Of a DNA stretch of 32,767 nt, positions 1,368 to 20,324 are shown in pieces. Source of the stretch: a virus. Both the position numbers and the translations under genes were made by a program. The stretch spans positions 1-32,767 of the IMG/VR virus record IMGVR_UViG_3300037069_002025, one strand, 5' to 3'. Positions within the stretch are counted from its first letter, which is position 1. Every line of letters starts with the position of its first letter. Below the pieces are notes generated by a model, which had not been told where the DNA came from, did not search any database, and saw nothing but the letters and a program-made list of their open reading frames with translations.

Positions 1368-1407
1368 TCGTGACCCGGCTGGCGCAGTTCGCGACCCGGC
1401 AAGACTG

Positions 1408-1439
1408 CAACGCAATGTCCACACAACGCAATGTCCACA
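1408..1439. repeat. Tandem 16-bp repeat, two perfect copies
   Basis: CAACGCAATGTCCACA occurs at 1408-1423 and 1424-1439. ATGTCCACA matches the DnaA-box consensus TTATCCACA at 7 of 9 positions, so initiator binding is possible but not shown. Confidence 0.75.
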
Positions 1440-1501
1440 CAACACGGTGGCGGCTGTGCAAGCGCACAGTCCAACGACCGCACACACGAAAGAAGGAACA
1501 A

Positions 1502-2071
1502 GTGGCGACACCCATCACCCTCGATGAACTGGCCGAGTTGTGCAAAGAGCGCAAGATGACCTATGCCGATGCACGCGACTACCTCGACGGCGTGCGCACA
1601 CCGCCCCCGCGACACTTCACGCTGACCGAAGTGGACGACGCCGAACTCGACTGGCTCGAAAAACAGGCGCGGAGCGACTACGGCTTGACGCGAGCCGAGC
1701 AGCAGCGTGTGATCTTCACCCTCCGCCGACAGCGCGAACGGCACACAGATATGACCAACCTCGCGGTGCGGCTGCTCACCGCGAAGGACGGCGACATCGG
1801 CAGGTACAAAGAGCGTATCTGGATGTTGCGCCACGCACTGCAATACGCGACCATCCAGCCGCCCCGGTCGCTCGATGACATCCGCGACATCGCGACGAAC
1901 GCTCTTAGGCACGACAACGCGAAAGAACGCGAGATGAACGACAGCGAGCCGCCGAAGCAAAGTCGCGCTCTCGGCATCGACTACGCCATTGCAGGCGGCG
2001 ACCGAACCGTGACCGTGCAACGCCCCGGAGCATACAAAGGTCGCGACCGGCGAGAAAAAATAGGCTCGTAA
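1502..2071 (+). CDS. Hypothetical protein (189 aa)
   Basis: GTG 1502 is chosen because AAGGA lies about 7 nt upstream; the frame is open further upstream, but that part lies in repeats and has no ribosome-binding site. The protein is highly charged and mostly helical in appearance. An N-terminal segment (LDELAELCKERKMTYADAR) could form a small helix-turn-helix, and a basic Arg/Lys-rich end follows ALGIDYAIAGGDRTV near the C-terminus. No family is recognised. An 11-bp hairpin starts 15 bp after the stop codon. Confidence 0.7.
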   Translation: MATPITLDELAELCKERKMTYADARDYLDGVRTPPPRHFTLTEVDDAELDWLEKQARSDYGLTRAEQQRVIFTLRRQRERHTDMTNLAVRLLTAKDGDIGRYKERIWMLRHALQYATIQPPRSLDDIRDIATNALRHDNAKEREMNDSEPPKQSRALGIDYAIAGGDRTVTVQRPGAYKGRDRREKIGS

Positions 2072-2085
2072 CTTGAACCAGGAGA

Positions 2086-2110
2086 CCCCCTGCATACTAT
2101 ATGCAGGGGG
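2086..2110. terminator. Perfect 11-bp hairpin downstream of the 189-aa gene
   Basis: CCCCCTGCATA (2086-2096) and TATGCAGGGGG (2100-2110) form a perfect stem with a 3-nt loop. There is no T-tract on either side, so it may be a weak or factor-dependent terminator, an RNA-stabilising hairpin or an operator. Confidence 0.55.
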
Positions 2111-2138
2111 GCTAACTATTTGTGGCACAATACTTCTT

Positions 2139-2262
2139 CCAGGACGTATAACTTTAGTAGGGCCAGTAACTTTTTCCAGGACGTATAACTTTAGTAGGGC
2201 CAGTAACTTTTTCCAGGACGTATAACTTTAGTAGGGCCAGTAACTTTTTCCAGGGCCGATAC
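2139..2262. repeat. 37-bp tandem repeat array (iteron-like)
   Basis: Three identical 37-bp units (2139-2175, 2176-2212, 2213-2249) are followed by a decayed fourth start (2250 onward). Each unit carries two TAACTTT-type segments about half a unit apart, separated by a GGGCC core. The units are much richer in A and T than the flanking DNA. There are no spacers, so this is not a CRISPR array. Together with the hairpin at 2086 and promoter at 2330 it fills 2072-2394 (323 bp without a gene). Confidence 0.9.
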
Positions 2263-2329
2263 TTTGGGTGGGAGGGCACTTGACGTGGGGATGGTCGGGA
2301 GAGTTCGCACAACTCAACTTCCCAAACAC

Positions 2330-2358
2330 TTGACAAGACCCTCAACTCGTGGTAGTAT
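2330..2358 (+). promoter_or_regulatory. Strong early promoter
   Basis: TTGACA (2330-2335), 17-bp spacer ending in GTGG, TAGTAT (2353-2358). It stands about 36 bp before ATG 2395 and would start the long early operon. The -35 is preceded by CAC, as at other promoters in this window. Confidence 0.85.
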
Positions 2359-2394
2359 AGGGTGTGGTCAGGAACTTCATCGGGAGGGTCAACG

Positions 2395-2628
2395 ATGGAA
2401 GAAGGAAAGCACGGTCTGGTCGTCACGATGACGCGCACGTACCGCGACTATAAGGCAGCGGTTCGAGCCGGTCTGCGACGCGCACACTCCACCGGCACCC
2501 TCGCATTCGTCGGGATGCAGATGGACTGCAAGTTCCACATCAGCGATGACGAGCCTGAGACGGATTTTCGATACGACAGTTGGACGGTCTGCTCACCGAC
2601 CGGACGCACATGGCTAGGGAGGCGATGA
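2395..2628 (+). CDS. Hypothetical early protein (77 aa)
   Basis: First gene of the early operon, beginning MEEGKHGLVVTMTRTYRD. ATG 2395 is preferred over the upstream in-frame start at 2362, which lies essentially on the predicted transcription start. GGGAGG lies about 7 nt before 2395. The protein is mixed, with two cysteines, an acidic DDEPETD patch and a basic end. It stops one base before the next start. Function unknown. Confidence 0.75.
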   Translation: MEEGKHGLVVTMTRTYRDYKAAVRAGLRRAHSTGTLAFVGMQMDCKFHISDDEPETDFRYDSWTVCSPTGRTWLGRR

Positions 2629-2629
2629 C

Positions 2630-3049
2630 ATGGCGCAGTACACGGGTCTGCACACCGTTTTCTACACCGACAAGGAGTACAAAACGCAGGGGCACATCGG
2701 CGGCGTGTTCGGCAACTACCACGACGCGGAGACGCAGTGCGAGGTTCTGCACAGCACTGGCCGCTCCCTGGCAACATGGATCGAGAAGCGTGCGCCGAGC
2801 GTCGAGGAGTTGTGCCAGGACGCGGTGCAGGGTGCGCTCCGCGCGCAGGCCGCTGCCTTCCACACTTGCGAGCGCGTAATGGACAAACTCCAACACGTCT
2901 ATCTCGACTCGCCAGCGGAGTTGCAGGACACCCACCGCTACCTGCTCTCCAACAACCTTGCGCAAGCGGCGAAAGAACTCTCCGAGGCCGGTGCTGCTCT
3001 CCGGCGCGCGAAGATGGAACTCCGCACTGCACAGAAAGGAACGACGTAA
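2630..3049 (+). CDS. Hypothetical early protein (139 aa), helical C-terminus
   Basis: ATG 2630 follows an AGGGAGG site. The N-terminal ~45 residues look globular (MAQYTGLHTVFYTDKEYK); the rest, from about residue 55, is alanine- and charge-rich and predicted helical, consistent with a coiled-coil or helical bundle (AAKELSEAGAALRRAKMEL near the end). Tight spacing to both neighbours indicates co-translation. No known family is recognised. Confidence 0.78.
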   Translation: MAQYTGLHTVFYTDKEYKTQGHIGGVFGNYHDAETQCEVLHSTGRSLATWIEKRAPSVEELCQDAVQGALRAQAAAFHTCERVMDKLQHVYLDSPAELQDTHRYLLSNNLAQAAKELSEAGAALRRAKMELRTAQKGTT

Positions 3050-3050
3050 G

Positions 3051-3305
3051 ATGCAGTACCTCAACCCTCCGGGTCAGCGCGGCAAGTACAGCATTCAGGC
3101 ATTCAGCCCGTCCGCCCGCCGAGACCGACGCCCGCACATATGGGAGATTGGCACGACCGACAAACTGGATGTCGCGGAATACTTCGCAGCCAGCAACGCA
3201 CGCGGCGCGACCGAGACGAAGATCGTGGAGAAAACAGACCGTTACAGCAACATCGGCAGCGTGCTCGGTGTCTGGTTCGATGGTAAGAGAAGGGAAAGTG
3301 TCTAA
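3051..3305 (+). CDS. Hypothetical early protein (84 aa)
   Basis: ATG 3051 follows the previous stop by one base and has an AAAGGA site about 10 nt upstream; the earlier in-frame start at 2958 would overlap the previous gene by 92 bp. The product starts MQYLNPPGQRGKYSIQAF and is basic, with a VAEYFAASNARGATET segment. It overlaps the next start by one base (TAATG). Function unknown. Confidence 0.75.
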   Translation: MQYLNPPGQRGKYSIQAFSPSARRDRRPHIWEIGTTDKLDVAEYFAASNARGATETKIVEKTDRYSNIGSVLGVWFDGKRRESV

Positions 3306-3499
3306 TGCCTGTGCAGAGTGACCATCACGCCGGTCCGTGGAAGTATCAGGTGTGGGCAAATGCGGACCCCATGAAAAAGGAGAGTCCCTGGTATCTCTAC
3401 AAAAACTACCGCGCGATGCAAGCCGACGATGTAAACAAGATCGTAGTCGCCCTCGCTCGAACCGGGTACGGCGTGACGGTCAAAGAAAGGACGCAATGA
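3305..3499 (+). CDS. Hypothetical early protein (64 aa)
   Basis: The ATG overlaps the previous stop codon, and AGAAGGGAA provides a ribosome-binding site. The small soluble protein starts MPVQSDHHAGPWKYQVW. Its C-terminal half (DDVNKIVVALARTGYGVTVKE) resembles a helix-turn-strand unit. No family is recognised; operon position supports it being real. Confidence 0.72.
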   Translation: MPVQSDHHAGPWKYQVWANADPMKKESPWYLYKNYRAMQADDVNKIVVALARTGYGVTVKERTQ

Positions 3500-3500
3500 G

Positions 3501-3767
3501 ATGGCGCGCTACACACGAGGATTGTATGGGTACGCAACCTTTGGCACGGGGTCTACTCGCAACACCCGCGCGAGCACGCGGCTCAATCTGGTCGCCGGTA
3601 AGCCGACGACCGAAGCGCGCGAGTACCTGAAATCCCTCAAACCGGGCGTGCGCCCCCTCGTGCTGAACGAGGCAAAGCGGATCGCGGAGTCGAAGAACCG
3701 CGCATACGTGACCCGGCAGATGTGCCTCGACGCGCACGCCTGGGTCTTTGCCGAGCCATTGACGTGA
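3501..3767 (+). CDS. Hypothetical early protein (88 aa)
   Basis: ATG 3501 has AAAGGA about 9 nt upstream. The basic protein opens MARYTRGLYGYATFGTGS and has a helical second half. The CGTGACCCGGC motif (3707-3717) falls inside it and reads as VTRQ. A promoter for the next gene overlaps its last codons. Function unknown. Confidence 0.75.
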   Translation: MARYTRGLYGYATFGTGSTRNTRASTRLNLVAGKPTTEAREYLKSLKPGVRPLVLNEAKRIAESKNRAYVTRQMCLDAHAWVFAEPLT

Positions 3768-3787
3768 AACACGAAGCGTGGTAGGAT
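3759..3787 (+). promoter_or_regulatory. Internal early promoter
   Basis: TTGACG (3759-3764), 17-bp spacer ending GTGG, TAGGAT (3782-3787), 22 bp before the GTG at 3810. The architecture matches the promoter at 2330. It gives the downstream early genes a second input. Confidence 0.75.
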
Positions 3788-3809
3788 AACACACAGAAGG
3801 AGAAATGAC

Positions 3810-4046
3810 GTGGCGACGATACTGTACAGCGAGAAGGCCAGCGACCTGATGACCCGTGTGCGACGTACCTGCGGGAAGGAGCAAGCGTATCGAGTGGCAA
3901 ACCACGCCGACATGCTCCGCGCGAACCGCGAGTCCGAGAGCAACATGGTCTTTACCCACGACATCACCGACGCGCTCGAAGCCCTGAAACTGACAAAGAA
4001 AGTCGAGCGCAACGTGCCGTATGTCGATCCGAACCGAAAGGAGTGA
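3810..4046 (+). CDS. Hypothetical early protein (78 aa)
   Basis: GTG start with AAGGAG upstream, directly behind promoter 3759-3787. Small, charged and predicted helical (MATILYSEKASDLMTRVRR at the N-terminus). No transmembrane segment and no recognised family. The next gene's Shine-Dalgarno AAAGGAG overlaps its stop. Confidence 0.75.
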   Translation: MATILYSEKASDLMTRVRRTCGKEQAYRVANHADMLRANRESESNMVFTHDITDALEALKLTKKVERNVPYVDPNRKE

Positions 4047-4056
4047 CGCCACCGCT

Positions 4057-4278
4057 ATGACCGATATACCCGTCAAGGTTGTCAAGGAGACCCACGTTCG
4101 TCACCTGTCCGAACCGGCACAGGCCGTCCTCGACGGATACGAGGAACTGTTCGGAACGCTCGTCGCCTCGCAGATACGCGAACTCGCCATCGTGACCCGG
4201 CTGCACGGACCGACAACGCCGTGGGTGGTCGCAAAGGACATCGAGCGGGCGGCAGAGAGCATCGTCGGAAAGTCGTAG
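4057..4278 (+). CDS. Hypothetical early protein (73 aa)
   Basis: ATG 4057 is chosen for the AAAGGAG about 13 nt upstream; the in-frame ATG at 4021 would overlap the preceding gene. The protein is helical, with LVASQIRELAIVTRL in the middle; the VTRL codons contain a copy of the CGTGACCCGGC motif (4191-4201). The C-terminal helix AKDIERAAESIVGKS is typical of small DNA- or protein-binding phage products, but no family is recognised. Confidence 0.73.
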   Translation: MTDIPVKVVKETHVRHLSEPAQAVLDGYEELFGTLVASQIRELAIVTRLHGPTTPWVVAKDIERAAESIVGKS

Positions 4279-4300
4279 AACCGAAGATCGAAAGGATTGA

Positions 4301-4576
4301 GTGGCACCTGTGGACAGCACTTTGACGCGACTTCGCATCGCGTCGCACACCCCGAACGCATACGCGACCATCGCCTACATGAACGGCGACGGCATCGCGC
4401 GGGTCCGCACCATCAGCGACATCCACGAGCCGCAGATCGGCAAGGATGGCGCACTGTATGTCAAGGCACACGATGACTTCCGCGACGCGCCGCGCACCTT
4501 CCGCCTGGACCGGCTGCAACCGCTCGCGTTCTGGCAGAAGGCTCCGTACGGACCGCCGAAAGTGTTGGCAATCTGA
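4301..4576 (+). CDS. Small WYL-domain protein
   Basis: GTG start, 91 residues. Residues ~20-78 look like a single WYL (SH3-like) domain: ATIAYMNGDG, then R-x-I, a P-x-I-GKDGALYVKAHDD segment, and the closing RTFRLDRLQPL, which matches the basic RxFrLdRI end of the family. By family, WYL domains bind nucleic acids or small ligands and often control transcription. Here the domain stands alone, with no HTH, a form often met in phages. A regulatory role is inferred. Confidence 0.68.
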   Translation: MAPVDSTLTRLRIASHTPNAYATIAYMNGDGIARVRTISDIHEPQIGKDGALYVKAHDDFRDAPRTFRLDRLQPLAFWQKAPYGPPKVLAI

Positions 4577-4809
4577 TGCGCCGCCGAGTGACGAACATCG
4601 CACCGTACCCACACACGACCGAGAGAGAGCGTGAGGCGGCATATGCCGCCCACGTTCGCATCTCCATCGAGCGGGGGGAATCCCTACCCCTGCCGCCTTC
4701 ACCACGCCGCCGCACCAACCTCATCGCCCTACTCGCGATCAGGCTGATTCAACTGTTCTTCATCTGTTTCGCCATCGCCTGTGTGCTCGCGATGTTCCAC
4801 GCAATCTAA
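4576..4809 (+). CDS. Small membrane protein (77 aa)
   Basis: ATG overlaps the preceding stop (TGATG). The N-terminal 47 residues are basic and soluble, with EREREAAYAAHV. They are followed by one clear transmembrane helix, residues ~49-74 (LIALLAIRLIQLFFICFAIA), ending a few residues later. The topology suggests the charged N-terminus faces the cytoplasm. Early phage membrane proteins of this kind may affect host physiology or superinfection; none can be named. Confidence 0.75.
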   Translation: MRRRVTNIAPYPHTTEREREAAYAAHVRISIERGESLPLPPSPRRRTNLIALLAIRLIQLFFICFAIACVLAMFHAI

Positions 4810-4823
4810 GGAGACCAATCACC

Positions 4824-5027
4824 ATGTCAGACCGCAACAACCAGATCGCTGACCCCTTCGACAAGGTACACCGCGCGCTGTTCGTCTCGATCATGCGCGG
4901 TCGTGGTCACACCCGCCAGATGGCGCGTCGCGCGTGGCAGTTGCGCGCAAAAGGCGCAATCAAGCGTGTTTCCCACGAGACACAGCAGGTGTTCAACGAC
5001 GTGACACGAAAGTTAGTCGGCCAGTGA
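4824..5027 (+). CDS. Hypothetical basic protein (67 aa)
   Basis: AAGGAG precedes ATG 4824 with good spacing. The product is strongly basic (RGRGHTRQMARRAWQLRAKGAIKR), predicted helical, and could bind nucleic acid. It overlaps the next GTG by 4 nt (GTGA). No family is recognised. Confidence 0.75.
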   Translation: MSDRNNQIADPFDKVHRALFVSIMRGRGHTRQMARRAWQLRAKGAIKRVSHETQQVFNDVTRKLVGQ

Positions 5028-5308
5028 GCACCGAGTTGCAACGTGCGATTTACTTTCGCGGCGGCTCGATGGATGGCCGGTGTGCAATCGTCCCGCAGCA
5101 CGACTTATATCCGCTGTTGCGCGTGCCGATCTACCGTGATCCGTTCTTTGCACCCGTACTATTCGATGACATCTTCGCGCCCAGGCGTGATGAGGTAGAG
5201 GAATACAACCTGCGCCGCGATGCGCTCGGACAGTTGTGCTATGTCAAACGCGGCAGCGGGATAAAGTTGTCCGGTTGGGAATATGATGGAGTTGTAGACG
5301 ATGCCTGA
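5024..5308 (+). CDS. Hypothetical protein with GGxxDGR motif (94 aa)
   Basis: GTG 5024 sits in the GTGA overlap with the previous stop; the longer in-frame start at 4934 would overlap it by 94 nt. The product begins MSTELQRAIYFRGGSMDGRC and contains a later YNLRRDALGQLCYVK. This RGG-x-x-DGR...Y-x-L pattern resembles small orphan proteins common in phages of high-GC hosts, which are of unknown function. It overlaps the next gene by 8 nt. Confidence 0.72.
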   Translation: MSTELQRAIYFRGGSMDGRCAIVPQHDLYPLLRVPIYRDPFFAPVLFDDIFAPRRDEVEEYNLRRDALGQLCYVKRGSGIKLSGWEYDGVVDDA

Positions 5309-5630
5309 ACAAACCTTTGTCTGGACACTGCGCGCCGAGCAGACGTTCAAGAAGTTTCTCCGCACATGGCCGGGTGCGCCGAAAGAGATTGCCCGCGCGA
5401 TCATCGAGGCCGGTGCGTTCAAAGACGGCGAGACAACCATCGACCGCGATCACGTCATCCTGGGACTCAACCGCTACAACAGGTACGGCGATCGGGGAGA
5501 GATACCGTTCACGGACATCGAGATTATCGCCCTGCCGCCCTACGGCTTCCGAACCGTGGACCGCGACGAGATGGAGTCTCGACGCATCGCCCTCGCGACC
5601 CGGCAGGCCGAAGAATGGAGAAGCGAGTGA
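5301..5630 (+). CDS. Hypothetical early protein (109 aa)
   Basis: ATG 5301 lies within the end of the previous gene (8-nt overlap). The N-terminal helix (AEQTFKKFLRTWPGAPKEIARAI) resembles small proto-chlorophyllide-reductase-like helices (VPxxVRxKLRxxIExxA type), with a following IEAGAFKDGETTIDRDHV segment, but this likeness is weak. A near copy of the dispersed motif (CGCGACCCGGC) lies at 5597-5607. Function unknown. Confidence 0.75.
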   Translation: MPEQTFVWTLRAEQTFKKFLRTWPGAPKEIARAIIEAGAFKDGETTIDRDHVILGLNRYNRYGDRGEIPFTDIEIIALPPYGFRTVDRDEMESRRIALATRQAEEWRSE

Positions 5631-6088
5631 CCCACCCCGACACCCCGCGCACGACCGCGCCCGCGATGGAGGGCGACGCGCTGACGGCGGAGCAGGCGCG
5701 ATCTTTTCGTCTCATGGAGGACGAGATAGACGCCGCCCTCCTGCATGTTGAAAGCCTTCAAGCCGAGAACGCCGCCCTGCGCACCCGGCTGGCACGAACC
5801 GAGCAACTGCTTGCCACCGCGCGCCGTGTCGTGAGCAAGTTGATTGTGCGCGGCATTGCCAAGGACACCGAGACCGCCGCCCTGTGCGACCGGCTGGCGC
5901 GGGCTGAGGCGCGGGAGCGGGAGTTGCGGGAGGCATTGGAGATGTTTCTGTCCGAGTGGGGCGTGGCTCCCTATTCCCCTATTGCGGTGGGTATTTCGGA
6001 CAAGGTCGCTCTACGTGCCCGTGCCGCCCTTGCCGCCCCCACGGACGGTGCGCCCCCGCCCCGGCGCGATGAAGGAGAAACACCATGA
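5627..6088 (+). CDS. Coiled-coil protein (153 aa)
   Basis: GTG 5627 is preferred: it forms a GTGA overlap with the previous stop and has GGAG 6 nt upstream; ATG 5615 (four codons earlier) is the alternative. Residues ~20-110 carry heptad-like patterns (EDEIDAALLHVESLQAENAAL, then ALCDRLARAEARERELREAL), indicating a parallel coiled coil. The C-terminus is alanine/proline rich. It overlaps the next gene by 4 nt. It may be a structural or scaffolding-type adaptor; no family is recognised. Confidence 0.75.
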   Translation: MTHPDTPRTTAPAMEGDALTAEQARSFRLMEDEIDAALLHVESLQAENAALRTRLARTEQLLATARRVVSKLIVRGIAKDTETAALCDRLARAEARERELREALEMFLSEWGVAPYSPIAVGISDKVALRARAALAAPTDGAPPPRRDEGETP

Positions 6089-6333
6089 GCACCGCCAGAG
6101 AAGTCGTGAGGCTTTTTGACGAGGGCAAGACGCCGCCGCAGATCGCCAGTATCCTCGATCTACCGTACGAGGACGTGCATCGCTTCCTTGAATCACGCCG
6201 CGCACTACTCGCCGATCCGCACGTCGGCGTTGCCCGCGATCTGTTCCGCAAACTGGCGGATGAGCAGCGCGCGGCGGGCGATGGGGGTGTTATAAAACCT
6301 CTACACTTATTGATAAGTGTAGAGGTTTTATAA
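6085..6333 (+). CDS. Small HTH protein with palindrome-encoded tail (82 aa)
   Basis: The ATGA overlap sets the start. Residues ~5-34 (EVVRLFDEGKTPPQIASIL, then DLPYEDVHRFLE) have the look of a resolvase/sigma-region-4-type helix-turn-helix, so DNA binding is likely. The last 14 residues (VIKPLHLLISVEVL) and part of the stop codon are encoded by the 46-bp perfect inverted repeat at 6289-6334. The natural C-terminus may therefore have been replaced or extended by a terminator hairpin. Function otherwise unknown. Confidence 0.73.
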   Translation: MSTAREVVRLFDEGKTPPQIASILDLPYEDVHRFLESRRALLADPHVGVARDLFRKLADEQRAAGDGGVIKPLHLLISVEVL

Positions 6334-6334
6334 C
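6289..6334. terminator. Perfect 22-bp inverted repeat, bidirectional terminator-like
   Basis: Arms 6289-6310 and 6313-6334 are perfectly complementary with a 2-base centre. The core stem CCTCTACACTTAT is flanked by an AAAA tract on the left and TTTT on the right, the layout of a bidirectional intrinsic terminator. It is strikingly AT-rich compared with the surrounding genes and overlaps the 3' end of the HTH gene. The early operon continues beyond it, so read-through or regulated attenuation is expected. Confidence 0.85.
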
Positions 6335-6367
6335 ATCTCCGAACGGTCATGATGAAGGAGCATAACA

Positions 6368-6643
6368 ATGCCATCACCAGTATATCTCCACGACGGAGAG
6401 CACAAGATAACCGTCAGTTTCCGCAAGGAAGAAGATCGCGAACGGTTCAAAGCGCACTACCGCAAACTTGATGCGCTCGGTGTGCAGTATCGCGAGGAAC
6501 GGGACGCCGCTATCAGTGACCTCGATGCGCTCGAATATGCCGTCGAGCAGCATGTAGATAGGGATACGATGCAGAAGATCATCGCGACCAAGAAAGTGAG
6601 GCAGACTGATGCGAAAGGAGTTCGTGACCCGGCAGGAGTTTGA
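6368..6643 (+). CDS. Hypothetical early protein (91 aa)
   Basis: AAGGAG precedes ATG 6368. An N-terminal beta-like stretch (VYLHDGEHKITVSF) is followed by a charged helix (RKEEDRERFKAHYRKLDAL) and a second helical part. Its last 35 bases overlap the next gene, a longer overlap than elsewhere in this operon. Function unknown. Confidence 0.7.
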   Translation: MPSPVYLHDGEHKITVSFRKEEDRERFKAHYRKLDALGVQYREERDAAISDLDALEYAVEQHVDRDTMQKIIATKKVRQTDAKGVRDPAGV

Positions 6644-6797
6644 AACCTATCAGCGAACGGTGAAACGGTATCGCCCTGTGCAACTATGGCGTATCGCGAG
6701 CCTGGGTAACTTACCGATGCCAACGGTCAAAACTATAGCCGCGAACATCGCGTGGCTCAATGAGAAGTATGGAAAGATAGAGGACAAAAGTGACTGA
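6609..6797 (+). CDS. Hypothetical basic protein (62 aa)
   Basis: ATG 6609 has a weak GTGAGG ribosome-binding site and overlaps the preceding gene by 35 nt and the next by 8 nt. The product begins MRKEFVTRQEFETYQRTV; the VTRQ codons carry the CGTGACCCGGC motif (6623-6633). The second half (LWRIASLGNLPMPTVKTIAA) may form a helix-turn-helix. No family is recognised. Confidence 0.65.
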   Translation: MRKEFVTRQEFETYQRTVKRYRPVQLWRIASLGNLPMPTVKTIAANIAWLNEKYGKIEDKSD

Positions 6798-7356
6798 CAA
6801 CCCGACGAGTGAGGAAAAACCGTCCTGGTGGGCAGACGACTTTGACGAGCGTGAGCGTAACGAGATACGTTTCGCGCACATCTATCGCGGAGAGTTCCAA
6901 CACGGCACAGACGGCCACCACCGGCTCCTGCTCATCTCCAAACTCGCGACCACGCTGGACCTTCTCTCGGAGAGGGTGCGCGCTGCGGATAGCAACTATC
7001 GTACCTGTGCGCAAACGAACAAAGCGTTGCAGGAACGTCTCGATGACGTAGAAGAAACGCTTGCTGTCACGCGCGAGCAGTTTGCGTCTATGAGTGAGGA
7101 AAACCGCCGACTCTGGAACGCCCAGGCTGCGGCACAGGCGAGCACGACAATACCGAACGGCATGTACACCGAGCACCTGGAACACGCCCTCAATGCTCTT
7201 ATTCCGAACCGATCATGGTCCGGCAAACTGCGCGGGTACAAGAGCGACCGCGCATACAGCCTCGCGACCGACGAGGTACGGCGCGCACGCAACTGCTCGA
7301 ACGCAGAGGCACGCGCCCTCGTGGATGGTGCGCTCGCGGTACTGCGAAGGGGATAG
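6790..7356 (+). CDS. Coiled-coil protein (188 aa)
   Basis: GTG start with AGAGG upstream. Residues 1-45 are polar and tryptophan-containing (PSWWADDFDERERNEIRF). Residues ~48-115 form a heptad-patterned helix (NKALQERLDDVEETLAVTRE); the C-terminal ~60 residues are a basic, probably globular domain (SWSGKLRGYKSDRAYSLATD). No enzyme motif is seen. Coiled-coil early proteins often act as adaptors, but no role can be assigned. Confidence 0.75.
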   Translation: MTDNPTSEEKPSWWADDFDERERNEIRFAHIYRGEFQHGTDGHHRLLLISKLATTLDLLSERVRAADSNYRTCAQTNKALQERLDDVEETLAVTREQFASMSEENRRLWNAQAAAQASTTIPNGMYTEHLEHALNALIPNRSWSGKLRGYKSDRAYSLATDEVRRARNCSNAEARALVDGALAVLRRG

Positions 7357-7362
7357 AAAACC

Positions 7363-7581
7363 GTGGAAGAAAACGAAGTTGAGGAACTGGCACTGATCCT
7401 GGCACTCTCGCGTATCTGGAAACTGCGCGACAAGCACGCGCTCGTGACCCGGCTGGACTTCGCCGCGCTGTGGGCAGTCCTGCTCGCCGTCCTGTGGCTG
7501 TGCAATCGTCGGCGCGTTGCGGCGTTACATCCGCCGATAGTCACCCCGCCGTACTATGGGTACAAAGAGGAAGGCGATTGA
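7363..7581 (+). CDS. Small membrane protein (72 aa), last early gene
   Basis: GTG start behind AAGGGG. A helical N-terminus (EENEVEELALILALSRIWKLR) is followed by one transmembrane helix at residues ~32-47 (FAALWAVLLAVLWLC), a basic NRRR stop-transfer patch, and a proline/tyrosine-rich tail. A copy of the dispersed motif lies at 7443-7453 (VTRL). A terminator begins 20 bp after the stop. Function unknown. Confidence 0.72.
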   Translation: MEENEVEELALILALSRIWKLRDKHALVTRLDFAALWAVLLAVLWLCNRRRVAALHPPIVTPPYYGYKEEGD

Positions 7582-7600
7582 CGCACAGCACGCACAGAGA

Positions 7601-10861: not shown

Positions 10862-11590
10862 ATGTTTGCGACACAGTATGGATTGGAAAAGGTGCCGAAC
10901 ACCGGCCCCATTGCGGTGCGCGTCGAGACCGTATCCTCCGAGAAGGCGGGGCGTGTCTACGACAAGATCAGTGGATTGGAAAACGGACGCCTGTTGCGCT
11001 TCCGCTCCGATGTCACGTTGAAAGAATGGGTCTCTCGTGACCCGGCAAACCACACCCCTGTCACCATGCGGGAACTCGAAACGATGCTCGGCACAGCGCA
11101 CAAGACGATGACGAGGATCGCGGAGGATGGCGAAGCGGAGTACGAGCACATCGCGGGTGTGGCGTACCGGCGAGAACACGGCCATGCCAATGACGACCAC
11201 TATATCGCGGTCGGTCAGACCGACCGCTATGGCACGGTAATGAAGGACGGACAGGACATCGCACGGGTGGTCTACACCGCGACAAAGGGAGAGATTCCGC
11301 CGTCGATGAGCGTGTGCCATACCTGCCGAGTCTCGAACTGTGTCAACCCGGATCACCTGGGACTCACGGACAGGCACACGCGCACGAGCATGACGACAAG
11401 CCGGTTGAGTGCGGAACAGGTGCGCGATATTCGCCGTCTGCTGGACGAAAACCGCTCCGAGGACAAGGACACGATGGGGCGTCCGCGACGCAAAGAGGGT
11501 CAGTTGACGAACCGCGACATCGCCACGAAGTTCGGTGTCAGCGAGAGTATGGTATCGCGGATCGACTCGCGATCCCGCAAGGAGCGATAA
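10862..11590 (+). CDS. HNH-fold protein with C-terminal helix-turn-helix
   Basis: AAGGAG precedes ATG 10862; 242 residues. An unassigned N-terminal ~95 residues is followed by an HNH_3-like core: CHTCRVSNCVNPDHLG, with Cys152, His153, Cys155, Cys160, Asn162 and His165. C-terminally, LTNRDIATKFGVSESMVSRI (~215-234) is a typical HTH. This combination is seen in homing-type nucleases that recognise specific DNA, and could also act as a regulator. It heads the replication block. Usual basic DNA-contact repeats (NUMOD) are not evident. A copy of CGTGACCCGGC lies inside it (11036-11046), reading RDPA. Confidence 0.78.
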   Translation: MFATQYGLEKVPNTGPIAVRVETVSSEKAGRVYDKISGLENGRLLRFRSDVTLKEWVSRDPANHTPVTMRELETMLGTAHKTMTRIAEDGEAEYEHIAGVAYRREHGHANDDHYIAVGQTDRYGTVMKDGQDIARVVYTATKGEIPPSMSVCHTCRVSNCVNPDHLGLTDRHTRTSMTTSRLSAEQVRDIRRLLDENRSEDKDTMGRPRRKEGQLTNRDIATKFGVSESMVSRIDSRSRKER

Positions 11591-12584: not shown

Positions 12585-12875
12585 ATGGAAGCAGACGAGC
12601 AGGACGCGCAGGAGAATGACGAGGCATCGAGGGAGCCGGAATCGTACACGCCGGACGGCATGTTCGCCCGTCACTGCGCCTGCATGACGTTAGTGCATCG
12701 TGATGGTCAGTCTCAGGTAACGGGACCGCAGCGCGAGAGCATCGCGGAAGCGGTCGCAGACCTCGCGGCGTGCGAGCGCGGCATGCAGGACGAGTTCCGG
12801 TGGCAGTGGGAGGAGCGTCAGAGCGTTGCGCGGACGATTATGACCTATTTCTACCGCAATACGTTCACACGCTAA
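12585..12875 (+). CDS. Hypothetical protein (96 aa)
   Basis: AAAGGAG lies before ATG 12585, about 48 bp after the -10 box. The N-terminal 25 residues are very acidic, then ARHCACMTLVHRDGQSQ and a helical C-terminus (ESIAEAVADLAACERGMQDEF). No family is recognised. It is the only gene between the operator-controlled promoter and an intrinsic-terminator-like hairpin, so it may be expressed on its own, for example as a regulator or recombination accessory. Confidence 0.72.
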   Translation: MEADEQDAQENDEASREPESYTPDGMFARHCACMTLVHRDGQSQVTGPQRESIAEAVADLAACERGMQDEFRWQWEERQSVARTIMTYFYRNTFTR

Positions 12876-12894
12876 CACCCGTTCGTGACCCGGC

Positions 12895-12920
12895 ACGCGG
12901 ACCCCTGCGGGTCCGCGTTT
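12895..12920. terminator. Intrinsic terminator or attenuator before the Sak4 gene
   Basis: ACGCGGACCC (12895-12904) pairs with GGGTCCGCGT (12909-12918) around CTGC, followed by TTC. The T-tract is short, so partial read-through into the recombination genes is plausible. A CGTGACCCGGC copy (12884-12894) abuts its 5' arm. Confidence 0.75.
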
Positions 12921-12939
12921 CACCCCAAAGGAGAATCAG

Positions 12940-13722
12940 TTGTCAATCACCACGAAGTCTCACGGCCCTGCGGTCGCGTCGCGACCGGCCATCACCGCAA
13001 AAATCGTCCACGCGCAGGACATTTCGACGGCGATCCGTTTCAACGGACTCGTCTACGGCTTCTCCGGCGCGGGAAAGACGAGCCTCTTTGCATCCGCGAG
13101 CGACGCGGGGCAGAAGGTACTCTTTATTGACGCCGAAGCCGGTTCGTCCGGCCTCTCCGACCGCGAGAACATCGACATCCTCGTGCCGTCCGACTGGGAC
13201 GAACTTGGCGAGGCATACGCCTTCCTCGTGGGCGGCGAGCACGAGTACACGTTTGTCATCCTCGACTCGCTCACCGAAATCTCGCGCATGTCGCTCGAAC
13301 GGGTGGTCCGCGACGGCAAGACGCCGGACAACTTGCCGACGCTGCAACAGTACGGGCAGAGCAACGATCAAGTCATCCGCCTCGTGCGCGCCTTCCGTGG
13401 CCTCGCCACATCGGGCAACCTGGGCGTTGGATTCACCGCTCTCGCCAAAGAGGACAAGGATGATGCGACGGGCAAAGTGCTCGTGCGCCCGAACCTCTCG
13501 CCGGGTGTGCTCGGTCAGGTGACAGCCGCCGTGGACATGGTTGGCTATCTGGCGCAGGGCACAACCAAAGAGCAGACGCAGCGCATCCTCTCGCTCACGA
13601 ACACGGGCACGACGCTCGGCAAGTTCCGCGCACCGGCTTCGGTCACGATCCCGCCGCAACTCGTCAACCCCTCGATGAGCGATCTGCTCGCGCTGCAAAG
13701 CGTGACGCAGGGCGGGCGGTGA
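12940..13722 (+). CDS. Sak4-like RecA-fold ATPase (single-strand annealing/recombination)
   Basis: TTG 12940 is chosen for AAAGGAG 6 nt upstream; there is no ATG nearby. 260 residues with Walker A GFSGAGKTS (40-48), LFIDAEAG (61-68) and Walker B TFVILDSLTE (104-113): the compact RecA core found in phage Sak4 (AAA_24) proteins. By family these bind single-stranded DNA and promote annealing together with a phage SSB. The DUF669-like SSB two genes downstream and the Cas4-like nuclease upstream fit that pathway. The C-terminus, RILSLTNTGTTLGKFRAP, is typical. Confidence 0.9.
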   Translation: MSITTKSHGPAVASRPAITAKIVHAQDISTAIRFNGLVYGFSGAGKTSLFASASDAGQKVLFIDAEAGSSGLSDRENIDILVPSDWDELGEAYAFLVGGEHEYTFVILDSLTEISRMSLERVVRDGKTPDNLPTLQQYGQSNDQVIRLVRAFRGLATSGNLGVGFTALAKEDKDDATGKVLVRPNLSPGVLGQVTAAVDMVGYLAQGTTKEQTQRILSLTNTGTTLGKFRAPASVTIPPQLVNPSMSDLLALQSVTQGGR

Positions 13723-14605: not shown

Positions 14606-14621
14606 TCTCCGAGCGTTCTGT

Positions 14622-14643: not shown

Positions 14644-14665
14644 TACACAGGAAGGAACTTCCGTT

Positions 14666-15082
14666 ATGTACGTCCCTGCTCCTCCATATCGCGGCTTTAT
14701 CGTTGGCGTCGATCCCGGCGTCTCAACCGGACTCGTTCACATCTCCCCCACGGACACCATCCTCGAAGCCACAACCGCGCATTCCTGTGATGAGGTCGCG
14801 GAGTTCTTGGCGGGCATCGGTGAGGGTACGCTGTGCGTGATCGAGTCCTACGCGGGCGGCGGTCATCTGATGCGTGAGGGCATTATCACGCTCGAAACAC
14901 TCGGCTTTGCCCACGGATGGGCGAAACGCAGTAATATGTATATTCGCTTCCAGACGCCACAGGCGCGTCTCGCGTACGTCGGACAGGCACAGGTCGCCTT
15001 GCCGGGTCACGAACAGCGACATATGCGCTCGGCACTGGCACACGCGCTCTGTGCGCGAGAACACTTCGAGGTTCCCACATGA
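14666..15082 (+). CDS. RuvC-like Holliday-junction resolvase
   Basis: 138 residues, ATG with GGAAGGA upstream. RNase H-fold motifs: GVDPGVSTGLV with Asp16, CVIESYAGGG with Glu60, and a C-terminal HMRSALAHALCA helix. In related phage resolvases the last motif usually has Asp before Ala (DAlaHA); here Ser122 is at that position, so the metal site may use another residue or be weakened. By family it cuts branched recombination or replication intermediates before packaging. A reverse-orientation CGTGACCCGGC copy lies at 15001-15011. Confidence 0.82.
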   Translation: MYVPAPPYRGFIVGVDPGVSTGLVHISPTDTILEATTAHSCDEVAEFLAGIGEGTLCVIESYAGGGHLMREGIITLETLGFAHGWAKRSNMYIRFQTPQARLAYVGQAQVALPGHEQRHMRSALAHALCAREHFEVPT

Positions 15083-15234
15083 ATCCACGCAAGAACGATC
15101 CCGTCATCGAGGAAGTCACACTCATCTGCCTGCGCTGCATTATCGGCGGCGTGATGGTTTTTCTCACTCTGGACTTCCTGTTTCTGTTGCTGTGGTTGTT
15201 TCACCACTTTGTTATGTTCGTCGGGAGATACTAA
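15079..15234 (+). CDS. Tiny membrane protein (51 aa)
   Basis: An ATGA overlap with the resolvase stop opens a 51-codon gene starting MNPRKNDPVIEEV. Residues ~14-47 are strongly hydrophobic (IIGGVMVFLTLDFLFLLLWL), enough for one long or two short membrane helices. It ends two bases before the next start (TAAG-ATG). Tight coupling on both sides is the main support. It may be an early membrane-acting peptide; function unknown. Confidence 0.68.
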   Translation: MNPRKNDPVIEEVTLICLRCIIGGVMVFLTLDFLFLLLWLFHHFVMFVGRY

Positions 15235-15235
15235 G

Positions 15236-15829
15236 ATGCGTGACTTCAAGTCGTGGCTCCGTTACTGGACCTACCGCTCGAACTGGCGTTATGAGATGAA
15301 GAAAAGGGTAGAACGCTTGACCGTCGCGTTCGTGTGGCGTCTGCCGTCCGAGATTATCAAGTGGTCCGTGATACGCATGTGGGCACACGCCACGACAGGA
15401 CATTACGGCGACACTATCGCGAGTGATATTACCGTGTTCAAAATCGCTGAGCGTTGGGACACCGCTCTTGGCGGCGACCGGCGACGCTGCCGTGAACTAT
15501 TCCGCAAGGGCTACCACGGACCGCACATCGTCAAGAACGAGGATGTCGAGCGCGCGCTAGACGAAAGAGCGTTCGCCGCGAAGTACCCGGAGTCCGTCAA
15601 GATGCGTGCGGCTCAGGGGCAAGGGACGACCATCGGTGAGTTCTTGGACTGGTGCTCCGAAAACAACATGCTGCTTGCGTCCTACGGAGACAGCGACCGA
15701 CTCTGGCCGATCACTGAGCAGGTAGAGATGCTTCTGCGTCGCTACCTGGGCATCGACAGCAAGAAGTTTGACGCGGAGCAACGAGCAATGCTCGCGGAAC
15801 TGCGAGCCGCACAGGAAACGGAACAGTGA
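15236..15829 (+). CDS. Hypothetical protein (197 aa)
   Basis: ATG 15236 with GGGAG upstream. The basic N-terminus (MRDFKSWLRYWTYRSNWRYE) leads into LPSEIIKWSVIRMWAHATTG and GDTIASDITVFKIAERWD. This region looks conserved and helical and resembles orphan proteins of phages infecting high-GC hosts. The second half is acidic and helical. No catalytic motif is recognised. It lies between the resolvase and polymerase genes, so a replication-associated role is possible. Confidence 0.77.
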   Translation: MRDFKSWLRYWTYRSNWRYEMKKRVERLTVAFVWRLPSEIIKWSVIRMWAHATTGHYGDTIASDITVFKIAERWDTALGGDRRRCRELFRKGYHGPHIVKNEDVERALDERAFAAKYPESVKMRAAQGQGTTIGEFLDWCSENNMLLASYGDSDRLWPITEQVEMLLRRYLGIDSKKFDAEQRAMLAELRAAQETEQ

Positions 15830-15830
15830 G

Positions 15831-16067
15831 ATGAAACTACAGTTTTCTTTCCATATTCGTCGTATCCGTCACCACCTACGCGGGGGTGCGGATACACAAA
15901 CATGGCTGACGTTTACGCGCGTGTGCTTTCTCGGCGCGCTGGTTGCCAACTCCCTCGCCAATGTCACGCATCACAGCGTCATATCGTATGTCGGTCTGTC
16001 GCTGGCACTCGGCGCGAGTCATGGCGTGAGTCGTCTCTACAAAAGAAGGAACAGCGACCGTGGGTGA
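15831..16067 (+). CDS. Small membrane protein (78 aa)
   Basis: ATG 15831 comes one base after the previous stop. A basic amphipathic N-terminus (FSFHIRRIRHHLRGG) is followed by two moderately hydrophobic segments (residues ~26-45 and ~49-65) and a basic C-terminus, compatible with a two-helix membrane hairpin. It overlaps the polymerase GTG by 8 nt. The product is not recognised. Confidence 0.7.
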   Translation: MKLQFSFHIRRIRHHLRGGADTQTWLTFTRVCFLGALVANSLANVTHHSVISYVGLSLALGASHGVSRLYKRRNSDRG

Positions 16068-18576
16068 TGTAGACTACGAATACCTACTCTCCCTATGCGA
16101 CTGTGCGAAGTGCCCGCTCGCGAAAGACGGCAAGCCGGACCCCACGAGGGGTCCGGTTCTCGGATGGGGCAACGAGAACGCGCAAGTTGCTATCGTCGGT
16201 GAAGCACCTGGACGGCAGGAAGTTGTGCAAGATCGCCCGTTCATCGGTCCGAGCGGAAGGCTGCTCGACGCCATGCTGACGCACGCCGAGACCGAGCGAG
16301 ACAACGTGTTCGTAACGAACGCCGTGCTCTGCCGCCCGATACCGAAGGATGGCAAGGATTCCGCACCTGGCGTCGCCGCTGCTCGCGCCTGCCGACCGCG
16401 CCTGATCGCGGAGTTGCAGTCCGTCCACCCGGACGTAACCGTTGCGATGGGTAGCACGGCGGTCAAGTCCATCTTGCAGACAAACGATAGCGTCTCGCAT
16501 CGCAACGGCGCGTTGGAATGGAATGAGGAATATAACTCGTGGGTTATACCCACGTTCCACCCTGCGGCTGTGTTGCGCGGCAACCTCTCCGCGTTCGATG
16601 ACGAACTCGATGCCCTCAAACGCGCTGTGGGCCTCTCTACGGGGCGTATACCCTCGCCGCCCGTCATTCATCCTACGCCGTCCTACGACCTCGTACAGAG
16701 CGAGTCAGAGTGCCTGAACGCGCTGTGGGAGATTCGTGACTATGTTGAGTCGCGGAGAGGAGATGAACCAGCCGGTGTGCTGCTCGCGCTTGACATCGAA
16801 ACAGGCGGCAAGAACAAAGAGGATGGTTTGCGCTACCTCGACGGAGACTTGCTACTCGTCTCCATCGCATCGCCGGACAAAGCCTGGGTGTTCGATTACG
16901 ACGCTGTTCCGGGCGGCTCCGAGAGCGCAGATGTGTTCGCGCGCATGTTGCAAAGTCAAGACATCACCTGGGTCTTGCACAATGCGAAGTTCGACATCCA
17001 GTGGTTGCGTCATCACTTTGGCGCATACCCGTACCAGTGGCTCGATACCATGTGCTACGCGCTTGCGCTCACCGAGCGTGGCGACGGCGTGGGGTTGAAG
17101 AAACTCAGCCGCCAGTACCTCAACGCCGGTTTTTACGAGGATACGCTACAGGTGCCCAAAGACGCATCGTACTCCGCTGTGCCGCGCGAAGTGCTCGCGG
17201 AGTATGCCGCGTACGATGTGATCTACACGGTGCGCCTGCTGCCTGTGCTCGAACGCCTCGTGATCGCGGAGGGCACACAGAAACTCGTGCCGCTGCTGCA
17301 CGCTGCACAGCGGGCATTCGCGGATTGCGAGTACCACGGCACTGCGTTTGATCGCGACTGGGCAGAGCACCTGGACAAACTTTGGCGTCCGAAGATTGAC
17401 GAGATGACCTATCGGTTGCAGGAGTACGCGCAGAAAGCGGGTTTCGTCGCGTGGCAGTCCTTCAAAAAGCCCACGAAGAAACAAAAAGAAATGGTGCTCC
17501 TCAACCCCGGCAGCACGACGCAACTGGCATCGTTCTTCTTCGACACGCTGCGTCTCGAACCTCCGGGCGGCAAGCGGACCACCGGCAAGGAACTGCTCGA
17601 AGCCTACCCGGATCACGAAGCGGTCAAGTTGCTGATCGAGTTGCGGCGGTACGAGCACATGGTCCACACGTACATTGATGGCTTTGTCGATGACATATGG
17701 GGCGACGGGCGCGTTCACCCGGACATCCTGCTCTTTGGCGCGGTGACTGGCCGGTTGTCGATCCATAACCCTCCGCTACAGATCATCCCGAAGCACAATG
17801 TTGACCCGGAGATTGCCGACGCATTGCACAGGCTCTTTGTGGCGTCGCCGGGGCATACGTTCGTGAACGTGGACTACAAGCAACTGGAAATCCGTGTCGC
17901 GTGGCTGCTCTCCGGTGACGCCGCGCTCGGCCAGTCCGTGCTCACCGGAGACTTCCACCGGCAGACGGCGAGCACCGTCTTTCGCAAGCCTGCGGAGGAA
18001 GTCACCGCCGTCGAGCGGTTCCAGATGAAGGCACTGACGTTCGGACTGATGTACGGTCGCGGTGCGAACGCGCTCTCGAAGGGCGAGATGCGACCGCTCA
18101 CGGGCGGCGACGCGCGAATAGCACAGGCATACATAGATGACTTCTTCAAGAAGTACAGCGAGTATGCAAAGTTCTACCAGCAGTGCCAAAGGGACGCAAT
18201 GCACAACGGCTTCCTGGAAACGCCATTCGGTCGCAAGCGGCGATGGAACCTCATCTCAGCGGATACGGTCTCCGAGATTCGCACGCAGTCGGTGAACTTC
18301 CCCGTGCAGAGCGTCGCGAGCGACATCTGCCTCTCGTCGCTGATCCGCCTGAACAAAATCTTGCAGGATCGCGAGTGGGGTCATGTGCTCTTTACCGTCC
18401 ACGATTCTATCGTTATAGAGATTCACGATGAGTGTCTTGATTCGGCACTCCCCCTCATACGTAAAGAAATGACCCGTACAGACCTCTTACCTCTACAAGT
18501 ACCCGCTAACTTCTGCCTCGATGTTGATGTTGAAGTGGGTAAAAACTGGGGAGAAACGGCGGTGTGGCATGAATGA
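16060..18576 (+). CDS. Uracil-DNA glycosylase / 3'-5' exonuclease / DNA polymerase I fusion
   Basis: 838 residues from GTG (AAGGA upstream). Residues 1-190 form a family 4-type uracil-DNA glycosylase: candidate 4Fe-4S ligands Cys15, Cys18, Cys91 and Cys111, motif GEAPG (47-51) with DRPFIGPSGRLLD, and FHPAAVLR (166-173). The exonuclease has LDIET (Asp245, Glu247), NAKFD (Asp312) and YAAYD (Asp386). Polymerase motifs are A, VDYKQLEIR (Asp605); B, KALTFGLMYG (Lys657, Phe661, Tyr665); and C, VHDS (His781, Asp782). There is no 5' nuclease domain. All three active sites look intact. The product is the replicative polymerase; the fused domain may remove or sense uracil. The last ~170 bp are AT-richer than the rest. 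Confidence 0.95.
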   Translation: MGDVDYEYLLSLCDCAKCPLAKDGKPDPTRGPVLGWGNENAQVAIVGEAPGRQEVVQDRPFIGPSGRLLDAMLTHAETERDNVFVTNAVLCRPIPKDGKDSAPGVAAARACRPRLIAELQSVHPDVTVAMGSTAVKSILQTNDSVSHRNGALEWNEEYNSWVIPTFHPAAVLRGNLSAFDDELDALKRAVGLSTGRIPSPPVIHPTPSYDLVQSESECLNALWEIRDYVESRRGDEPAGVLLALDIETGGKNKEDGLRYLDGDLLLVSIASPDKAWVFDYDAVPGGSESADVFARMLQSQDITWVLHNAKFDIQWLRHHFGAYPYQWLDTMCYALALTERGDGVGLKKLSRQYLNAGFYEDTLQVPKDASYSAVPREVLAEYAAYDVIYTVRLLPVLERLVIAEGTQKLVPLLHAAQRAFADCEYHGTAFDRDWAEHLDKLWRPKIDEMTYRLQEYAQKAGFVAWQSFKKPTKKQKEMVLLNPGSTTQLASFFFDTLRLEPPGGKRTTGKELLEAYPDHEAVKLLIELRRYEHMVHTYIDGFVDDIWGDGRVHPDILLFGAVTGRLSIHNPPLQIIPKHNVDPEIADALHRLFVASPGHTFVNVDYKQLEIRVAWLLSGDAALGQSVLTGDFHRQTASTVFRKPAEEVTAVERFQMKALTFGLMYGRGANALSKGEMRPLTGGDARIAQAYIDDFFKKYSEYAKFYQQCQRDAMHNGFLETPFGRKRRWNLISADTVSEIRTQSVNFPVQSVASDICLSSLIRLNKILQDREWGHVLFTVHDSIVIEIHDECLDSALPLIRKEMTRTDLLPLQVPANFCLDVDVEVGKNWGETAVWHE
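16135..16156 (+). other. Hairpin inside the polymerase coding start
   Basis: CCGGACCCC (16135-16143) and GGGGTCCGG (16148-16156) form a perfect 9-bp stem with a 4-nt loop followed by TTCT, at codons 26-33. It closely resembles the terminator stem at 12895-12918 and could attenuate polymerase expression. Confidence 0.55.
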
Positions 18577-19033
18577 GAAAGACCTTACGCGGTTCCTCTC
18601 CAAAGTTCGCGTTTTACCGGATGGCTGTTGGCAATGGACCGGCTCCTTTTTCTCGAACGGGTACGCCTACTTCCATACAGGTACACGTCAATCGAGAAAG
18701 GCTAACTTAGGCCATAAAATCGCGTACGAGCATTTTGTTGGTCCTGTACCGAACGGCTTGCAGTTAGATCATGTTGCGACGTGTCGCCATCGTTGGTGCG
18801 TCAATCCCGCACACGTCGAGCCGGTGACAAGAAAGGTCAACATGCAGCGAGCGGTGCCGTTCAATCATCTTGGTGTTTATGATCGAGTGAAGCCCACACA
18901 CTGCCCGCAGGGGCACGAGTATACGCCAGAGAACACCTACATGTATGCAAACGGAAACTACTATTGCAAAGAGTGTAACCGGGCCGCGTCTCGTCTGACC
19001 TACCACAAAAAGAAAGGCTTGCAGCATGGTTGA
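18569..19033 (+). CDS. Free-standing HNH endonuclease
   Basis: ATG 18569 overlaps the polymerase stop by 8 nt; 154 residues. The core is HKIAYEHFVGPVPNGLQLDH with Asp67-His68, then Cys72, CVNPAHVEPVT (Cys77, Asn79, His82) and KVN (Asn91). A C-terminal zinc-ribbon follows: HCPQGHEYTPENT...YCKECNR (Cys112, His116, Cys133, Cys136). This is the common HNH_3 phage nuclease, a homing-type DNA nickase or cutter. GC is much lower than in neighbours (26 of 60 at 18661-18720), a sign of separate origin. It overlaps the helicase start by 8 nt. Confidence 0.9.
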   Translation: MNEKDLTRFLSKVRVLPDGCWQWTGSFFSNGYAYFHTGTRQSRKANLGHKIAYEHFVGPVPNGLQLDHVATCRHRWCVNPAHVEPVTRKVNMQRAVPFNHLGVYDRVKPTHCPQGHEYTPENTYMYANGNYYCKECNRAASRLTYHKKKGLQHG

Positions 19034-20324
19034 ACTCTACCCGCATCAGCAGGACGGCGCGACATGGCTGGAAGATGTCAGTCGCGGCATCCTCGACTGG
19101 CAACCAGGAACGGGTAAGACGTTCGCCGCGCTCGCGGCGAGCAACATGACTGATGTGCTCGTGGTTTGCCCCGCATACCTCGTGTGGAACTGGGAGGGTG
19201 CGATCAAAGAGATGTACCCGGATGCACAGGTCGTCATACCATCCGGCACACCGGCACAGAAGCGTGAGGCATTGAAAGACGCGCGAGAGTACGCCGATTT
19301 CGTTATCGTCTCGTATAACCTTCTCGCGGATCAATGTGCCGCTCTCGCAACCCATAAGTGGGGCACGGTCATCTTTGACGAGGCTCACTACCTGCGCGGT
19401 CGCGCGACGAAGCGCACCAAAGCCGCCGAGAAGTTGCAGTCGTACAACCTCTACCTGCTCACCGGCACACCCATCCGCAAGAACGCGGGAGACTTCTTTC
19501 CGTTGTTGCGGCTGTGCAACCGTCGCGAGTTCACGTCCTACTGGCGTTTCGTGCAGGAGTACTGCTACACGAAGGAAACTCCGTGGGCTACAGAGATTGG
19601 CGATGTTCGTGACCCGGCTGCGTTTCAGCGTCTCCTAGAGCCGTACGTCAGCCATTGCGCGCTGACCGATGTGTTCACGGACATCCCGGACGCGATTTGG
19701 ACGACAATCCCGGTGCTGATGACGCCGAAAGAGACGCTAGATCACAAGAAGATCAAGAAGGAATATCGTTCTCCGTCCGGCGAACCGCTTTCCGGCGCGG
19801 GGGCAGTTGTGCCAGAGTTGCGCCGTCTGACAGCGGCGGGGAAAAACAAAATCGAGGCAACGAAGCAACTGCTCGCGGATCACGACGATGAGAAGGTGAT
19901 CGTCTGGACATGGTACAAGGAGAGCGCGCAGGTGGTCGCGGAGTGCTGTGTGGCGAACGACCGGCAACGTTTCCTCGCGACCGGAGACTTGACGCCTCTG
20001 CGTCGCGCGGACGTGATCCGGCAATGGCTCGATACAGAGGATGGTGTGCTGGTCGCGACGCTCGCGAGTGTGGGCGAAGGGTACAATCTGCAAGACAGCC
20101 GGGTCGCGGTGTTCTACGAGATGGATTACCTGCCGAGCACCAATCTCCAAGCACTCGCGCGGCAACGTCGCCACGGGCAGACCGATACGGTACGCGCGTA
20201 CGCGGTCGTGGCGAAGGGAAGTATTGACACCGCGATTGCAAAGATCGCGCAACGTCGGGATACATCGAACAGCACGGCACAGGGGTTAGAGGCTGTACTA
20301 ACGGAGTTGATGAAAAATGCCTAA
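19026..20324 (+). CDS. SNF2-type superfamily 2 helicase/translocase
   Basis: 432 residues. Motif I PGTGKT (27-32), Ia VVCPAYLVWNW, II DEAH (118-121), III LLTGTPI (145-151), then in domain 2 VIVWTWYKES, LVATLASVGEGYNLQ (motif V) and QALARQRRHGQ (motif VI). These match compact phage SNF2-like ATPases that move along double-stranded DNA. It follows the polymerase and nuclease genes directly, so it probably serves replication or recombination. A CGTGACCCGGC copy at 19608-19618 reads RDPA. Confidence 0.93.
   Translation: MVELYPHQQDGATWLEDVSRGILDWQPGTGKTFAALAASNMTDVLVVCPAYLVWNWEGAIKEMYPDAQVVIPSGTPAQKREALKDAREYADFVIVSYNLLADQCAALATHKWGTVIFDEAHYLRGRATKRTKAAEKLQSYNLYLLTGTPIRKNAGDFFPLLRLCNRREFTSYWRFVQEYCYTKETPWATEIGDVRDPAAFQRLLEPYVSHCALTDVFTDIPDAIWTTIPVLMTPKETLDHKKIKKEYRSPSGEPLSGAGAVVPELRRLTAAGKNKIEATKQLLADHDDEKVIVWTWYKESAQVVAECCVANDRQRFLATGDLTPLRRADVIRQWLDTEDGVLVATLASVGEGYNLQDSRVAVFYEMDYLPSTNLQALARQRRHGQTDTVRAYAVVAKGSIDTAIAKIAQRRDTSNSTAQGLEAVLTELMKNA

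Follow-up and report, generated by a model that had tools for sequence, protein, structure and literature searches.

A dispersed, strand-asymmetric DNA site in the early region of a phage genome fragment and its possible role as a nick motif

The phage fragment and its gene blocks

The stretch of DNA analysed here, called the window, spans an entire virus record (32767 bases). None of the window proteins scanned was recognizable as a terminase, portal or capsid protein, and the record is therefore a fragment of a phage genome. A rightward early/replication block extends to ~21 kb and faces a late block that runs leftward and includes endolysin and tail genes. The rightward block comprises small ORFs and genes for an HNH nuclease, a PD-(D/E)XK exonuclease, a Sak4-like recombinase, a family A polymerase, a second HNH nuclease, an SNF2-type helicase and an HTH_3 protein. 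A primase gene lies inside this block and runs leftward. Gene limits are our own ORF calls and may shift by a few codons.

Searches with the polymerase, helicase, Sak4 and tail proteins recovered only one near-identical fragment (L009) and distant homologs. No relative combining diverged genes with a conserved copy of the motif described below was found among them. 17/18 differences from L009 lie within 18421-19703, a 1.3 kb patch that falls on the second HNH and helicase genes and looks as if it had been exchanged by recombination or homing.

Short palindromes are depleted in the window. AGCT, AATT and TTAA are absent (65, 27 and 15 expected, respectively), as are 40/64 six-base palindromes, including 24/41 of those expected more than 5 times. 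Gapped palindromes such as CCGnCGG and CGAnnnnnnTCG are also absent, while CGCGCG, GCGCGC, TCGCGA and CGTACG are spared. The observed/expected ratio for palindromes is 0.32, compared with 0.46-0.70 in six comparison phages. Avoidance this extreme suggests one or more hosts with many Type II restriction systems and heavy restriction pressure. Non-temperate phages have lost all of their Type II sites more often than temperate ones have (PMC6286503), and the palindrome purge indicates that this phage is probably virulent.

An oriented motif in the early block

The 11-mer CGTGACCCGGC is the most frequent 11-mer of the window, with nine exact copies, while the next non-overlapping 11-mers have at most 4. 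Dinucleotide shuffles predict 0.07 +/- 0.26 exact copies, and 14 matches with at most one mismatch were found where 1.8 are expected. The initial annotation had listed nine exact copies with eight in one direction, and a recount bore out their positions and strands (8 plus, 1 minus). For comparison phages with no known dispersed site, the top 11-mer has only 3-6 copies, and the promoters of T7 reach 11. The two single-mismatch copies reported earlier, CGCGACCCGGC, do exist, though slightly displaced from the positions first given; they lie at 1390-1400 and 5594-5604. A third CGCGACCCGGC copy, on the minus strand at 20098-20108, lacks the flanking T.

When the copies are combined into a profile, the signal lengthens to YTCGYGACCCGGCWR (13-14 bp). 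Eleven sites score at least 21 bits (Table 1), the next best match scores 15.2 bits and all others are lower. Flanks beyond the YTCGYGACCCGGCWR positions have no comparable conservation. Phage nick (sci) motifs occur as ~9-14 strict repeats, a range that includes the 11 strict copies found here.

Table 1. Strong motif sites and candidate site-recognizing proteins in the window
Feature	Sequence	Position	Strand	Context
Site 1	TCGTGACCCGGCT	1368..1380	+	intergenic leader upstream of gene at 1502
Site 2	TCGCGACCCGGCA	1389..1401	+	21 bp downstream of site 1
Site 3	ACGTGACCCGGCA	3706..3718	+	inside ORF 3501-3767, frame VTRQ
Site 4	TCGTGACCCGGCT	4190..4202	+	inside ORF 4021-4278, frame VTRL
Site 5	TCGCGACCCGGCA	5593..5605	+	near 3' end of ORF 5301-5630, ATRQ
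Site 6	TCGTGACCCGGCA	6622..6634	+	overlap of ORFs 6368-6643 (RDPA) and 6609-6797 (VTRQ)
Site 7	TCGTGACCCGGCT	7442..7454	+	inside ORF 7363-7581, VTRL
Site 8	TCGTGACCCGGCA	11035..11047	+	inside HNH-nuclease gene 10862-11590, RDPA
Site 9	TCGTGACCCGGCA	12883..12895	+	intergenic, 12875-12940; strong hairpin follows
Site 10		15000..15012	-	sole reversed copy; antisense inside ORF 14666-15082, which has a weak Holliday-junction-resolvase match
Site 11	TCGTGACCCGGCT	19607..19619	+	mid-gene, SNF2-type helicase 19026-20324, RDPA
HNH endonuclease, possible C-terminal HTH		10862..11590	+	candidate nickase
Second HNH endonuclease (phrog_826)		18521..19033	+	candidate nickase
HTH_3 (XRE-like) regulator		20317..20832	+	candidate binding protein under an operator reading

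The sites are uneven in both strand and location. The plus strand carries 10/11 (p=0.012) and the first 21 of 32.8 kb holds 11/11 (p=0.008), while the 11.7 kb of late genes has no strong site. The confinement to the early and replication blocks first described thus holds within the window, which is a genome fragment. 6/11 sites are deep, lying 30 nt or more inside genes. The exact copies at 1369 and 12884 are both intergenic, where only one such copy had been reported; the one at 1369 is counted as such because the following gene most likely starts at the GTG at 1502. The single antisense copy was confirmed. The leader that holds sites 1 and 2 also contains degenerate repeats (GAGGCCAAAACGAATGATTCCA, GGACCGACCGGGCAACGAAAT and others) at 1160-1460.

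The coding copies do not encode a common peptide. One frame gives VTR(Q/L) or ATRQ and another gives RDPA; site 6 falls where two genes overlap and is translated in both frames, and site 10 is antisense. With 8 sites coding in these different ways and 3 intergenic, the motif shows the frame independence of nick motifs. Synonymous codon resampling, a null that preserves codon usage, gave a mean of 2.25 copies, 2 of which are the intergenic copies left unresampled, and a maximum of 4 in 500 trials, far below the nine observed. VTR occurs 8 times in the called proteins and is encoded GTG ACC CGG in 4/8, compared with ~0.16 predicted by codon usage. RDP is encoded CGT GAC CCG in 3/4 occurrences, and the RDPA of the helicase is not conserved among homologs from four phages. 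A protein motif is ruled out by the differing frames, the resampled nulls and the helicase homologs.

The word composition of the window is distorted by the palindrome purge, and for that reason we considered an artefact of chance, codon usage or composition. Its probability is negligible: the shuffle and codon-resampling nulls already refute it, and the low counts of the top 11-mers in the comparison phages speak against it as well. YTCGYGACCCGGCWR is a DNA-level, strand-asymmetric recognition site, and the initial proposal of an oriented DNA site rather than a protein motif is upheld by the resampling, the frames and the helicase homologs. In L009, 4/4 covered sites are intact, and site 11 is preserved between SNPs at 19604 and 19625, but at 99.8% identity the divergence is so low that this retention is weak evidence of conservation.

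Nick motif, operator and other readings

In three unrelated groups of phages the DNA carries programmed nicks, which have been recognized for 50 years and have no known function (PMC11780129). Phage tf has 14 strict TACT/RTGMC sites on a single strand; each of them is nicked, and near-miss words are left intact (PMC3517423). Across the 542 motifs of 61 nicked relatives, 88% are within genes, mostly but not only on the coding strand (PMC11780129). According to work cited in PMC3517423, the nicks of phikF77 are repaired soon after infection and appear again at a late stage.

Our best explanation, put forward tentatively, is that the site may be a motif for localized single-strand nicks, with a new sequence, in a lineage that has no cultured relatives. 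Of the candidate roles in the initial annotation, that of a phage-nuclease site agrees best with the measured precedents, the nick motifs. A phage nickase would recognize the asymmetric 13-14 bp YTCGYGACCCGGCWR site and cut one strand at fixed places, producing interruptions late in infection, during late replication or before or during packaging, like those of the tf/LUZ24-like phages, the phiKMV-like phages and T5. The nickase could be one of the two HNH proteins, whose presence in the window was counted toward this reading; no link between them and the site was found. The nicks may serve packaging, recombination or defence evasion. At the reversed site 10 either the other strand would be nicked or the site would not be used. 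The cutting, its restriction to one strand, the phage nuclease and the purpose of the nicks are all things that we infer for this phage.

The tf genome was put through the same analysis. 14/14 sites were on one strand, 12/14 were in the early unit and 9/14 were at least 30 nt inside genes. Its coding copies use two frames (TVT, YC), and some are antisense to genes. The window motif resembles this sci motif of the tf/LUZ24-like phages in having 9-14 strict copies, a one-strand bias, concentration in the early half and sites mostly in genes in several frames. Both genomes have a convergent layout, with a rightward early/replication block against a leftward late block, and tf is lytic, which accords with the virulence that the palindrome purge suggests for the window phage. 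In contrast, the two sequences have only GTGAC in common, possibly by chance, and the tf motif is shorter at 9 bp. Tf and its group have no opposite-strand site, whereas 1/11 is reversed here, and the tf nicks were demonstrated experimentally, whereas our motif is known from sequence alone. No window protein matched those of tf or phiKMV at E<=0.01. The phiKMV-like consensus CGACxxxxxCCTACTCCGG is likewise long, strict, oriented and on one strand of a virulent phage, but it has only 3 copies in phiKMV, each overlapping an annotated phage promoter, whereas the sites here are not at promoters. Nicking in such phages is the work of sciA/sciB-type genes; the sci genes of T5 map to the late region, whereas the HNH candidates of the window are in the early block. 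If the nick reading is true, this would be a fourth, unrelated nicked lineage with a new, longer motif, which would suggest convergent use, and such phages could be found by a purely sequence-based route.

The main rival, next after the nick motif, is operator-type silencing, which we regard as possible but rather doubtful. The site would then act like the dispersed, asymmetric operators ("stoperators") of the Cluster A mycobacteriophages L5, D29 and Bxb1: a phage repressor or silencer would bind it as a monomer, and initiation or elongation would be blocked depending on its orientation. Cluster A stoperators are 13 bp, asymmetric and mostly in one orientation relative to transcription (PMC9283540, PMC6550527). 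The window sites are like them in length, asymmetry, dispersal and copy number, and 10/11 are in the sense orientation. Sites 1 and 2, 21 bp apart in the leader, could form an operator pair, the window encodes an HTH_3 protein, and the sites cluster in the early block. Location is where the two systems part. D29 and Bxb1 served as the Cluster A comparison genomes. Stoperators belong to promoters and short intergenic spaces, and 12/14 exact D29 sites are intergenic or at gene edges. Deep sites make up 2/14 of the exact D29 sites (p=0.08 against the 6/11 here) and 4/24 when one mismatch is allowed (p=0.04), while the fraction in tf does not differ significantly from that of the window (p=0.70). 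This comparison of tf with D29, small in numbers and with one genome of each kind, favours nick sites. Cluster A stoperators also occur in both arms, including the late arm of D29, whereas the late block of the window has no strong site. They are tied to a known two-domain repressor, of the L5 gp71 type (HTH plus stoperator domain). Among the proteins scanned in this fragment neither an L5-type repressor nor an integrase was seen, and the HTH_3 protein is of another type. The palindrome purge suggests a phage that is not temperate. It weakens a reading based on a lysogeny repressor and agrees with a virulent phage like tf. The regulator binding site suggested at the outset stays the chief competitor of the nick reading. 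To our knowledge, stoperator silencing has been described in actinobacteriophages only, and if the site is an operator, stoperator-like silencing would be shown outside that group.

The remaining readings are less probable still. It is unlikely, though conceivable, that the site belongs to a previously unknown strand-specific DNA-processing system in a phage lineage without cultured relatives, with a specificity and mechanism that are new and do not reproduce those of tf or L5; the phage DNA would then be protected or routed, under extreme restriction pressure, by programmed nicks or by bound proteins. Slightly less likely is a Chi-like site that guides recombination or replication for a host or phage enzyme, e.g. 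RecBCD/AddAB. There is one site per 3 kb, the phage encodes an exonuclease and a Sak4-like recombinase, and bacterial Chi sites are also oriented, dispersed and frame-independent. Known Chi sequences are host-encoded, found genome-wide and 5-8 bp long, whereas this motif is longer and missing from the late block. When 84,980 species genomes of bacteria and archaea were scanned for twin motifs, only local tandem repeats, coding coincidences and palindromic Pirellulales repeats came up, and none of five genomes then counted for the motif had a phage-like density. The Chi-like role proposed in the initial annotation is accordingly disfavoured, as is a host Chi-like or uptake sequence, since none of the genomes scanned carries the motif densely. 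An RNA-level element in early transcripts, acting through regulator binding or antisense pairing, would agree with the 10/11 sense-oriented sites, but we consider it very unlikely. Six sites that were folded share no secondary structure (z-scores -1.4 to +1.6) and Rfam had no window match at E<=0.5, which together speak against a structured RNA. One strong site is antisense and positions within genes are scattered. Lowest among these, and highly improbable, is a partition or nucleoid-type binding site, such as the dispersed centromere of N15, or some other part in structuring the DNA. The copies are dispersed, strict and orientation-biased, but neither ParA nor ParB was recognized among the window proteins scanned, and the motif is non-palindromic, unlike the palindromic centromere repeats of known phage-plasmids. 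Two other candidates were set aside: pairing to the 3' end of 16S, judged by eye, has a mismatch at an invariant position, and promoters for a phage RNA polymerase would match T7 in number, but the sites are mid-gene and not upstream of genes.

Other repeats in the scanned genomes and the window

Dispersed copies were found in no other viral contig, either in the twin scan or among the matches listed in the 14-mer scan. The twin copies of L013, L022 and L024 were rejected as a VTRQ/VTRL coding coincidence near tRNA genes. In Pirellulales (Planctomycetota; L029, L033, L034, L036, L038 and L040) the scan met a repeated palindromic REP-like element, GGCCGGGTCGCGACCCGGCC, which is unrelated to the phage motif.

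The window itself contains further repeats. Tandem 37-bp repeats (ACTTTTTCCAGGACGTATAACTTTAGTAGGGCCAGTA) at 2132-2272 are AT-rich relative to the genome average and are flanked by a terminator-like hairpin and, at 2330, by a sigma-70-type promoter; they are possible iterons or a control region. A 48-bp direct repeat (81-128 and 779-826, 90% identical) lies in the left end, which looks non-coding. Between two small genes, at 6283-6340, is a 28-bp inverted repeat with a 2-bp loop (CCTCTACACTTAT / ATAAGTGTAGAGG).
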